DNA of 64,000 nucleotides from Deltaproteobacteria bacterium (GTDB lineage Bacteria > Desulfobacterota > Binatia > Binatales > Binataceae): NCBI GenBank assembly GCA_021831785.1, contig JAKBMB010000020.1, positions 62,001 to 126,000 on the forward strand, written 5' to 3'. Positions within the stretch are counted from its first letter, which is position 1; the number at the start of each line of letters is the position of its first letter. Below, piece after piece: positions 36,969-40,773 of this stretch. Under the pieces are notes generated by a model, which saw nothing but the letters and a program-made list of their open reading frames with translations, was not told the origin of the DNA and made no database searches. A program made the translations under genes and the position numbers.

Positions 36969-37922
36969 GCGAGCCGTTGGGAGGGTATCCGGTCCTTTTA
37001 GGTGCGCGGTGCGGGTCGCGGGCGTGCTCGTCTCAGGGGCGCCGTCAAATTACGGCCACCTGAACGGTGGGCCCTTTGCCGCAAGGCTCGGAAGAGCCTG
37101 CGCAGATAGATACCGGAGGTCGATGCGCTAGACTGCGCGCCGGCGCGGGCTTGGCGGACCAATCCATTCGGCCGTCGCCTAGGCGATGAAGCATTCGCCC
37201 CGCCAGCTTTCCGACGACCTTGCGCGCGAGCGCACCGAGCAGTTTATTCGCGGCGAAATCGAGCGTTAGCGCGCTCGCCCCGTGGCGCGCCTGAGCGCCG
37301 CCTGCTGCAATCGCGCCAGCCTGCGTACGCGGTTCCGGCGGGCGGGCGCGTGTCTTTGCTCCAGGTCTATCAGGTCTGTCGCCCCGCGAAATAGGCCGCG
37401 TGGGTGTGACGGCCGTCGGATCGCCGCGACAAGACGAAGAGGAGCGGGGCGTGGTGCGTCGGCAAACCAAGCCAAAGGCATCCGTCCGCAGTCTCGGCCT
37501 CGTGCGAAGGGACGAAATCGGGCCTCTTGGGGAGCGACTGAGGCCGCCGAGAGCAGAACCGTCCCTAGCTGTCATGCCGGGAGAAATTTGCACTATACCT
37601 GCTTTGGCGGTAGCAGCGAACAGGCAAATTCTGCTTGACTAGTACTATTCCGGCGACGAGCGGAGCGCGAAGGGTCGGTTAGTTGGCCGACTTATGCGGC
37701 TGTGGTCTGCCGCGAGAGGAAAGAGGCCGGGGGTGCGAGCGGCATGGGGGAACCACAGGTGGCCGGTCCGGGCGGTGAAAAACGCCTCCCAACGCGGCGA
37801 TGATGGGACCAAAAGCGGTCTTATAGGGCGAACCACGGCAACCGGGCATCACCGAGTGGCGGGCAGGTTCGCTCACTTTCGCGCCGCTCCGATAACGGTC
37901 TGTAGGAAAAGATGGATGAGGT
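36969..37922. other. Long intergenic region carrying a dispersed repeat, no gene seen
   Basis: About 950 bases between the ferredoxin and GT21 genes. A repeat occupies 37137-37404 (listed separately). The remaining sequence has open frames on both strands with Arg/Pro/Ala-rich, non-protein-like composition. TTGACT near 37636 could be part of a promoter for the glycosyltransferase, without a well-spaced -10. Confidence 0.4.
37137..37404. repeat. Direct repeat flanking the sulfolipid cassette, copy 1
   Basis: A block of about 268 bases that aligns with 40534-40773 in the same orientation. Shared stretches include GCGCCGGCGCGGGCTTGGCG at the left, GGCGAAATCGAGCGTTAGCG in the middle and ATAGG..GCGTGGG at the right end; by eye about 80% of positions match over the first 150 bases, with small gaps later. 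A minus-strand frame with LDFAAN-LLGA is shared by both copies, but amino-acid identity is lower than base identity, so it does not look like a conserved protein. Confidence 0.8.
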
Positions 37923-39119
37923 ATGTCGGAGGCAGTTCACTACATCTTGGCGATGTTGCAGCATGTAGCAAGCTTTTGCCTAGCGGCTTCTGTTTGTTTG
38001 TACGCGGCGCAGGCGGCAGCCGGCCTATGGTTCGCACACAAGAGCGCATCCCCACCCCCTCTACCCAAAAACCTTCCGTTGGTGGCGCTGCTCAAACCGC
38101 TGCACGGAGTGAGCCGGGAGCTGCCGGAATGTCTGGAAACTTTCTTTAGGCTTGACTATCCGCGCAAGCTTTTCGTGTTTGGAATCACGGACGAGAGCGA
38201 TCCGGCCGGGCAGGTTGTGGAATCCATGAAGCGCCGGCATCCGTCCGAAGCGGTCATTACCACGGTGGGCGAGGAACCGGCAAGTAATCGCAAGATAGGC
38301 AAACTCGCGAGAATGGTTCGCGCGGTGCCGGACGCGGACATCATCGTGATGACCGATGCGGACATGGAGGTGGCGCCTGACTACCTTTGTCGCGTCGTCG
38401 CAGAACTTCAGCAGGACCACACGGTTGGCCTGGTGACATGCGCCTGTCGCGCGCGGCCATCGGGGCCGGCGCTCGCCGCAAGGTTGGAGGCGCTTTTTGT
38501 CAATACGGATTTCACGCCCATTGCGCTGCTGTCGAACATCATAGAGCCGATGCGCCACGCGTACTCGGCGACTATCGCGATTCGGCGCGAGGTCCTCGAC
38601 GCTGCGGGAGGACTGGAAAAAATCAAGAACTGCTCCGGCGATGATATCATTCTCGGACGGCGCGTAGCGCAAGCCGGCTACAAGGTGCGGCTCTCGAGCG
38701 CGGTCGTTACGAACGTCACCGACCAGACGACGATCGCCGAGTTCTGGCAGCGGGAGTTGCGCGGCGCTCGCGTGGATCGCATAGCTCGCCCGATCAGCAC
38801 AGCGAAGATTTTAATCAATGGACCATTTTGGGGGGCTGCGCTGCTCGCGGTGTCCGGTTTCAGTGGATGGACGCTCGGGGTGATGGTGTCGGTTCTGCTC
38901 GCCCGTCTGGCTCTGGCTGCTTTGATTCTGGAGCGCGTGCTGAGACTCCCGCGCAGCGCGCTGCGAGACCTATGGCTTGTGCCCCTCAAGGACTTGTTCA
39001 TGGCCGCCGTATGGTTTGTAGGTCTGCGTGGTAACACGGTGCAATGGCGCAGCAGACGCCTTCGCTTGCTGCCTAATGGTCTGTATGAGGAAATCGAGCC
39101 TCCTAAAAGCGCCATTTGA
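37923..39119 (+). CDS. GT21/GT2-type membrane glycosyltransferase (HpnI/ceramide-glucosyltransferase-like)
   Basis: A 398-residue lipid glycosyltransferase. An N-terminal membrane segment (about 15-37) is followed by the GT-A domain with LVALLKPLHGVSRELPECLE, the nucleotide-sugar Asp residues in GITDESD (90-93), the metal motif TDADMEV (144-150), GDD (239-241) and, in place of the family (Q/R)xxRW, RELRGAR at 277-283, where Trp is replaced by Gly. Two to three membrane segments close the protein. Relatives glycosylate ceramide, diacylglycerol (Agrobacterium/Mesorhizobium Pgt) or hopanoids (HpnI). It lies about 155 bases before UDP-sulfoquinovose synthase, so sulfoquinovosyl transfer to a lipid is a reasonable but untested role. 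ATG 37923 has a weak GATGAGG upstream. Confidence 0.85.
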   Translation: MSEAVHYILAMLQHVASFCLAASVCLYAAQAAAGLWFAHKSASPPPLPKNLPLVALLKPLHGVSRELPECLETFFRLDYPRKLFVFGITDESDPAGQVVESMKRRHPSEAVITTVGEEPASNRKIGKLARMVRAVPDADIIVMTDADMEVAPDYLCRVVAELQQDHTVGLVTCACRARPSGPALAARLEALFVNTDFTPIALLSNIIEPMRHAYSATIAIRREVLDAAGGLEKIKNCSGDDIILGRRVAQAGYKVRLSSAVVTNVTDQTTIAEFWQRELRGARVDRIARPISTAKILINGPFWGAALLAVSGFSGWTLGVMVSVLLARLALAALILERVLRLPRSALRDLWLVPLKDLFMAAVWFVGLRGNTVQWRSRRLRLLPNGLYEEIEPPKSAI

Positions 39120-39275
39120 CCGCAACTGCTGTGCTGTTAGAATCATCGGCTGCGGCCTCGGATGCCCGCGCTTACTTGCCTAGTGCCCGGCGGGCAAGCT
39201 GGCCGCAGCTTAAGCTCGTGACATCTTGCTCGCCTGGCGATCCCCAGCTACCGAAAAAAGGAGGGGTTGACGAAC

Positions 39276-40481
39276 GTGCGCATCATAGTCCTCGGCGGTG
39301 ACGGGTACTGCGGCTGGCCGACGGCCCTCCACCTATCGGATAGAGGCCACGAGATTCTGATCGTCGATGACTTCAGCCGCCGCCGCATCGATTATGAGCT
39401 CGGCACCGAAAGCCTCACCCCGATTGAAATACTCCACACGCGCATAAAGACCTGGCAGAACCTCTCCGGCCGACGAATTCAACTGGCGGTTGGAAGTGTC
39501 AACGACTACGAATTTATGGCCGACGTGATGCGCGGCTTTGCTCCGGAGTCGATCGTTCATTATGCGGAGCTCCGGTCTGCGCCTTACTCGATGATCGATC
39601 GGCAACACGCGATACAGACCCAGCTACATAACATCGAGGGTACGCTCAATCTGCTGTACGCGATGAAGGAGTTCGCTGGCGACTGTCATTTGATCAAGCT
39701 CGGCACGATGGGTGAGTACGGACAGCCCAACATCGATATCGAGGAGGGCTTCATCGAGGTTCACCATAATGGCCGCAGTGACATTTTGCCGTACCCGATG
39801 CAGCCCGGCTCTTTCTACCACCTTTCGAAGGTGCACGATAGCCAGAACATCATGTTCGCGTGCAAAATTTGGGGTCTACGCGCAACCGACCTGCATCAGG
39901 GCGTCGTTTACGGGACGATCACGGATCAGATCGTGCTCGATGACCGGCTGCTAAACCGGTTCGACTATGACGACGTATACGGCACCGCGCTTAACCGCTT
40001 CTGCGTGCAGGCCGCGATTGGCCATCCACTGACAGTCTATGGGAAGGGAGGTCAGACGCGCGGCTTCATCGATATTCGCGATACGGTTAGCTGTATTGAA
40101 CTGGCGGCGATTCACCCGCCGAGGCCCGGCCAGTACCTGGTTATGAACCAGTTTACAGAGCATTTCAGCGTCATGGAGCTTGCGCAGAAGGTGACGGAGG
40201 CAGCCGCCAAGCTCGGGCGCGTGGTGGAGATTGAGAAGGTTCCAAATCCCCGTGTTGAAACCGAGGACCACTACTACAATCCGAAAAATACCAAGCTCCT
40301 GGACCTCGGCCTACAGCCACGCTACCTCTCACAGTCGCTGTTCGACTCCCTGCTTAACATCGCCGTCAAGTATCGTGATCGCCTGAAGCCCGAGGTTATC
40401 GCGCCCAAGGTGAACTGGCGTAATGTCACGAACCCGGAAAGGGGGCACCAGTTCTTCATCGGCGCCAAGCCGGAGCGGTGA
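39276..40481 (+). CDS. sqdB: UDP-sulfoquinovose synthase (SQD1/SqdB family)
   Basis: Makes UDP-sulfoquinovose from UDP-glucose and sulfite, the head-group donor for the sulfolipid SQDG. The 401-residue SDR-type protein is very close to the family consensus: [16 protein letters not shown] at the N-terminus, [28 protein letters not shown] with the active-site Thr and Glu (144-147), YHLSK (181-185), and [30 protein letters not shown] is also diagnostic. GTG 39276 was chosen because AAAGGAGGGG ends ten bases before it and it gives the usual RIIVLGGDG start; the TTG at 39267 is too close to that site. It follows the GT21 gene in the same direction. Confidence 0.96.
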
Positions 40482-40533
40482 GGTTCCGTCAAAGCCCGTC
40501 CCTTGTGTTTTCGCCGGAGGGTGGCGCTACCGT

Positions 40534-40773
40534 GCGCCGGCGCGGGCTTGGCGGAGCAAATCTATTCGGCTGCTGCCTACGCGATGAAGCCTCCGCCCCG
40601 CCGGCTTCCCGACGGCCTTGCACGCGCGCGCACCGAGCAGTTCGTTCGCGGCGAAATCGAGCGTTAGCGTGCTCGCCGTTGACCACCTGAGCGCTGCCCG
40701 CCGCAATCGCATGCGCACGCGGCGGCTCGTCTTTGCTCCGGGTCTGCCTGCGTCGTACAATAGGCGACGTGGG
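40534..40773. repeat. Direct repeat flanking the sulfolipid cassette, copy 2
   Basis: The second copy of the block at 37137-37404, same orientation, about 240 bases. Its right end (AATAGGCGACGTGGG) supplies both the ribosome site and the GTG start of coaBC, and the equivalent bases in copy 1 read ATAGGCCGCGTGGG with no coaBC-like sequence after them. Copy 1 and copy 2 enclose exactly the GT21 and SQD1 genes. Confidence 0.8.

Follow-up and report, generated by a model that had tools for sequence, protein, structure and literature searches.

How did a glycosyltransferase gene and a sulfosugar gene come to lie between two copies of the same repeat? The case arises in a 64,000-nucleotide stretch (the window) from a Deltaproteobacteria bacterium of the Binataceae (contig JAKBMB010000020.1, positions 62,001 to 126,000), where genes for a GT21 glycosyltransferase and for the UDP-sulfoquinovose synthase SqdB sit between a ferredoxin gene and coaBC, with a direct repeat on either side. 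A reading made from the DNA letters only (the sequence-only reading) had described this as a sulfolipid cassette that recombination between the repeats could remove, add or amplify. We find that the repeats are duplicated remains of ino1, a gene that is dead here, and not a mobile-element motif. They surround a GT21-SqdB pair, probably through gene turnover: the pair would have settled here while an inositol-headgroup pathway was being lost.

Origin and decay of the repeats

The two repeats lie on the same strand, as had been described, at 37113-37404 and 40514-40773. Their best local alignment (37113-37368 against 40514-40745) scored 242, compared with 33 for the best of 200 shuffles, and global alignment of the two copies gave 221 matches, 35 mismatches and 40 gap columns, or 86.3% identity excluding gaps. 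The sequence-only reading had placed them at 37137-37404 and 40534-40773; the ends hold, and the true starts lie about 20-25 nt further left. Its mention of long identical stretches was generous: the copies are identical in part, with longest exact runs of 25 and 22 nt. The GT21 gene (37923-39119) and sqdB (39267-40481) are indeed the only genes recognised between them. The assembly that holds the window (3.68 Mb, 34 contigs, 96% complete; referred to as G000) yielded just these two copies, the next-best match being 30 nt long (E = 0.005). The bracketing might have been chance had the repeat occurred at dozens of unrelated sites, as the earlier reading recognised, and it does not. A dispersed repeat family of the MITE, ERIC or REP kind was rejected on the same count, since many copies would be expected.

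A DNA search with the left repeat against 57 genomes, including the window's own, matched 18 relatives. In 13 of these the matching DNA is the 3' end of an intact ino1 gene, as located by protein search; the other five (G001, G002, G010, G037 and G039) gave short matches of 27-54 nt (E 2.5e-4 to 6.6e-4), and G012 gave an additional second match of 33 nt. Intact ino1 genes in the relatives have 366-369 codons including the stop, and their product matches PF01658 and the mycobacterial-type inositol-3-phosphate synthase 1gr0 in the Protein Data Bank (PDB), over residues 3-363 for the G014 gene (E=4.7e-112). That gene scored 405 bits against TIGR03450, whose cut-off is 638, and is a homologue rather than a certified equivalog. 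The window, unlike these relatives, keeps only broken tails of the gene: in a protein search its genome yielded ino1 as two pieces only, residues 322-367 and 331-367. Each repeat consists of the end of ino1 followed by the ino1-coaBC spacer, and the right one continues into coaBC. Alignments of the ino1-tail core scored 84-105, which none of 100 shuffles reached. The repeats thus have both the homology to the 3' end and the syntenic position of an ino1 remnant. Upstream of 37113 and of 40514 no ino1 similarity was found, the scores being no higher than those of shuffles (the stretch on the right is only 32 nt), which places the starts of the two remnants at nearly one and the same position in ino1. 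Nor did the 518 bp that follow the left repeat (37405-37922) show homology to ino1, to coaBC or to any of 37 other genomes. The features of the interval are as follows.

35442-36509, plus strand: Mrp/NUBPL-type P-loop NTPase (PF10609), left anchor of the conserved interval and in the same place in relatives.
36633-36968, plus strand: 4Fe-4S ferredoxin (Pfam Fer4 families), the putative ancestral upstream neighbour of ino1.
37113-37269, plus strand: left ino1 remnant, about the last 46 codons by homology, interrupted by an in-frame TAG (37180-37182) and, further upstream, by a break in the frame.
37270-37404, plus strand: left copy of the ino1-coaBC spacer (by alignment), with the promoter-like pair of coaBC broken (by eye).
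37405-37922, no strand assigned: 518-bp stretch before the GT21 gene, matching only itself among 38 genomes.
37923-39119, plus strand: GT21 glycosyltransferase, HpnI-like (262.6 bits against an HpnI cut-off of 310).
39267-40481, plus strand: UDP-sulfoquinovose synthase SqdB, one of two in the genome (profile, PDB matches and tree).
40514-40667, plus strand: right ino1 remnant, about the same last codons by homology, with a one-base frame shift.
40668-40773, plus strand: right copy of the ino1-coaBC spacer, continuous with the coaBC start, with the promoter-like pair TTGCTC-17-TACAAT (by eye) at 40733-40761.
40769-42016, plus strand: coaBC (PF02441 and PF04127), probably starting, by eye, with the GTG at 40769; its open reading frame as listed starts at 40733.

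Both tails are broken as coding sequence. The left carries its in-frame TAG, with two TAG codons falling within its protein match, and the right is shifted by one base. Both copies have an open frame of 27 codons that starts with ATG and ends at TAG; across the 84 nt from start to stop the tails show 3, 4 and 2 differences at codon positions 1, 2 and 3; among 120 pairs of 16 intact ino1 genes the mean differences are 4.8, 2.4 and 11.6. Because only two of the nine differences fall at third positions, without the excess seen in intact genes (one-sided binomial p=0.019, on small numbers), both tails look dead: the frame is broken and constraint is gone. Compared with intact genes, the left tail differs by 2.6 at position 2, close to the 2.4 of intact genes among themselves, which suggests, again on small numbers, that ino1 had been functional until shortly before. 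In the right tail, positions 1 and 2 are both raised, to 6.5 and 6.4.

At its end the right copy carries, by eye, TTGCTC, 17 nt and TACAAT, seven bases before the likely coaBC GTG. The sister species of the same genus (G001) has TTGCTC, 17 nt and TAAAAT at the matching place, and the left copy does not keep this spacing. A promoter scanner with a stricter rule made no call at the right-hand pair. The right copy does supply the start region of coaBC, as had been claimed, in that it runs into the likely GTG; the ribosome-binding site also attributed to it is not evident by eye.

If RecA-type recombination between the repeats could delete or amplify the two genes, cells with and without them should form a mixed population. 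The same orientation, the bracketing position, the restriction of the repeat to two copies and the coaBC signal kept in the right copy all fit such a unit, and excision would spare coaBC as the sequence-only reading had said, a crossover in the ino1-tail part leaving the gene with its upstream signal. Low identity and short exact runs make homologous recombination rare, however, and at 86% identity, with 40 gap columns and no exact run longer than 25 nt, it should be rare here; moreover, the copies are decayed gene tails. The features of a composite transposon or of a cassette flanked by insertion sequences are likewise missing: among 19 window proteins scanned, a subset of its open reading frames, there is neither a transposase nor an integrase, and the edges bear no long inverted repeats. 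Mobilisation or amplification by remnants of ino1 and its spacer, 14% diverged, therefore finds no support, the less so as the sister species carries such a pair without repeats of this kind (below), and we regard a recombinational cassette as unlikely.

The ferredoxin-coaBC interval in relatives

The closest relatives of coaBC come from metagenome-assembled Binataceae or Binatia, the nearest being Deltaproteobacteria bacterium FK3.bin99 (86%). Of 35 family genomes, 19 have ino1 next to the ferredoxin gene, as one of two types: type A, 367 aa (G002, G003, G012, G013, G014, G015, G017, G025 and G031), or the distant type B, 440 aa (G004, G011, G016, G018, G024, G027, G028, G029, G032 and G034). 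coaBC follows ino1 in 13 of the 19, with one gene between them in G014; in five the sequence read ended first, and in G031 the region is split between contigs. The intervening gene in G014 (L006:1676-2392) is a putative methyltransferase, named by eye. Types A and B are 23-28% identical over part of their length and occupy the same slot in different genera (L168:3766-5085, L169:4128-5447 and relatives), a replacement in place by a distant homologue.

Elsewhere in the family, ten genomes have ino1 at another site or without a ferredoxin gene found beside it (G005, G007, G008, G010, G019, G021, G022, G023, G026 and G030), and G020 has an end fragment only. No intact ino1 was found in five family genomes (G000, G001, G006, G009 and G033); G006, which is 53% complete, and G033, which has no close ferredoxin match, were excluded from the ino1 tests below. 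The ferredoxin gene and coaBC adjoin in G001 (about 225 bp apart) and G009 (about 100 bp).

A GT21-SqdB pair lies inside the ferredoxin-coaBC interval in none of the 16 relatives in which it is readable (the 13 above with G001, G009 and G010). The sister species G001 has its own SqdB and GT21 on the other side of the ferredoxin gene, between it and Mrp and in the opposite order, and no direct repeat of at least 18 nt stands on both sides of that pair. In trees, the window SqdB pairs with that of G017 (98/97) and the window GT21 with that of G009 (99/92), while both G001 proteins fall in other branches. The two species thus appear to carry separately derived pairs in the same interval, to the extent that the branch supports establish that the two SqdBs, or the two GT21s, are not sisters.

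A duplicated gene 3' end on the flank of an insert is also the footprint expected if a circular DNA had integrated at the 3' end of ino1 and left a duplicated tail on the other side, in the way that integrative elements can restore the end of a target gene; the SqdB-GT21 pair that the sister species carries, separately placed, in this interval would fit as well. Here, however, ino1 was not restored, since the two copies break off at nearly one position of the gene; no integrase or relaxase occurs among the 19 window proteins scanned; and the sister's pair has no such repeats. We think an origin of this kind improbable.

Loss of ino1 and a proposed history of the locus

The three genomes that miss ino1 in a readable interval (G000, G001 and G009) all have SqdB, as against 8 of 30 ino1 carriers (Fisher p=0.03). 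Each of the three has four CDP-alcohol phosphotransferases (PF01066), fewer than is usual in the 30 others (3 to 8, and 5 to 7 in 26 of them; one-sided Mann-Whitney p=0.004). Among the eight genomes, out of 57, that were examined for it, a CDP-alcohol phosphotransferase of 397-426 aa is present in all five ino1 carriers and in none of the three non-carriers, whose 12 PF01066 loci hold no full-length relative of this protein of about 400 aa and nothing that matches its N-terminal part. Its best NCBIfam model, in all four proteins scanned, is the bifunctional inositol-1-phosphate cytidylyltransferase/inositolphosphotransferase. The likeness lies in the C-terminal CDP-alcohol phosphotransferase domain (AF2299 in the PDB matches the G032 protein at residues 209-318); the scores, 74-82 bits against a cut-off of 580, come from the C-terminal half only. 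The N-terminal 200 or so residues match no family, and inositol is thus only a candidate substrate. Part of PMC9246714 concerns a CDP-inositol route to inositol lipids, proposed for Bacteroidetes; the main text of PMC8262859, on Binatota genomes, does not contain the terms inositol, sulfoquinovos, sulfolipid, hopan or phospholipid. We infer from the joint absence of ino1 and the transferase that G000, G001 and G009 gave up an inositol-headgroup pathway.

The tails differ from each other by 14%, and four-fold sites in six neighbouring genes differ by 45% between G000 and G001 (532/1177), so that the duplication looks younger than the split of the two species, on the assumption that both tails drift freely and have not been homogenised. 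This dating suggests that ino1 was lost separately in G000 and G001.

The history that we consider likely would start from the order Mrp-ferredoxin-ino1-coaBC. In the lineage of this genome ino1 would have been truncated to about its last 46 codons, and the block of ino1 tail, spacer and coaBC start would then have been duplicated, or brought in again, around GT21-SqdB. The left copy would have lost the promoter-like signal of coaBC and the right copy kept it, and the pair may have settled at the former site of an inositol-phosphate gene while the inositol-headgroup pathway was given up.

Several observations weigh against this history. The strongest, as far as a neat replacement is concerned, are that eight relatives have both SqdB and ino1 and that the window's genome has another SqdB operon, at C32, so that the copy studied here was not needed for gaining UDP-sulfoquinovose. 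The insertion step is unexplained: both tails start near the same point of ino1, and the 518-bp stretch has no traced source. In G010 the slot beside coaBC is empty, yet a type B ino1 is kept on another contig. The left tail is raised at codon position 1, 7.1 compared with 4.8 among intact genes, which counts against a very recent death of the gene, and gene conversion could have given the duplication too young an appearance. Finally, the presence/absence tests are small and post hoc and ignore relatedness, G000 and G001 being of the same genus.

That the repeats are instead a conserved functional element in two copies (a regulatory RNA, a small protein or a promoter) is very unlikely: the 27-codon frame open in both copies and the promoter-like end of the right one would fit, but that frame is the ino1 tail, without third-position excess, which led us to reject a small conserved protein; the promoter-like pair of the left copy is broken; and a structured RNA was rejected too, the two Rfam matches in the repeats being below the family cut-offs and chance-like, with none there in a second scan.

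Read as gene turnover around a dead ino1, an apparent mobile cassette becomes a legible record in which one gene dies in place and another sugar-headgroup pair appears in the same interval, with two sister species holding different gene pairs there. Should one pathway in fact stand in for the other, the locus would be a natural experiment, showing which anionic lipid a soil bacterium can spare.

The GT21-SqdB pair and neighbouring genes

The window SqdB resembles SQD1/SqdB (PDB 1i24 and 1qrr) over nearly its full length, matching residues 5-387 of 404 (E=1.4e-171), and shares with it KLGTMGEYG and a second stretch of 10 residues, which we take to be active-site stretches. It differs in its score against the equivalog model NF041015, 487.1 bits where the cut-off is 575; two other copies in the family scored 497.3 and 490.4. 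It also differs from known SqdB systems in its neighbour. Instead of SqdX/SQD2 (family GT4) or SqdD, the known sulfoquinovosyltransferases, it has a GT21 beside it. We also weighed the GT4 gene at 43411-44601 as an SqdX and rejected it: its only matches were to GT4 models, far below their cut-offs, and to assorted GT4 structures. This gene (plus strand) lies between CGS-like and TldD-like genes in G000 and G001 and was not found there in G015.

The best NCBIfam model for the window GT21 is HpnI (TIGR03472), at 262.6 bits with a cut-off of 310. The HpnJ-linked GT21 of the same genome also falls short (270.7), so that the failure of the window GT21 says little. In G015 a GT21 from the subclade of the window protein is found next to HpnK and two genes away from SqdB. 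The window GT21 belongs to another clade than the HpnJ-linked GT21.

A GT21 gene was found within 5 kb of sqdB at 3 of the 11 SqdB loci read (that of G034 on a 6.4-kb contig; G010, with two, G028 and G029 were excluded). A weak GT21-like protein near SqdB in G017 (20% identity, L155:3784-4929) was not counted as GT21. All three linked GT21s fall in one subclade (100/99) of a 33-row tree, which leaves out the GT21 hits of G007, G008, G017, G030, G001:C105, G009:C59 and G015:C17. The subclade comprises six rows from four genomes, all SqdB-positive, and is present in 4 of 10 SqdB-positive and 0 of 20 SqdB-negative genomes in the tree. These data point to GT21 as a candidate partner of SqdB, and the pair probably makes a sulfoquinovose-bearing product. 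The label 'sulfolipid' in the sequence-only reading goes further than this, since SqdB accounts for UDP-sulfoquinovose and not for the acceptor of the GT21. More speculatively, and with considerable doubt, the SqdB-linked subclade might be a new sulfoquinovosyltransferase, possibly acting on hopanoids, whose spread in the Binataceae would let the cell swap inositol-based anionic lipids for sulfoquinovose lipids, repeatedly and in the same chromosomal interval.

The operon of the second SqdB is common to G000, G001 (C32) and G015 (C29); it comprises a sigma-54 regulator, an ArsB/CitMHS-type transporter, an Omp85-like protein, SqdB and an epimerase (L152:2371-10640). Elsewhere in the window, 24305-25396 on the minus strand encodes a 363-aa protein that matches the pentameric ligand-gated ion channel domains PF02931 and PF02932.

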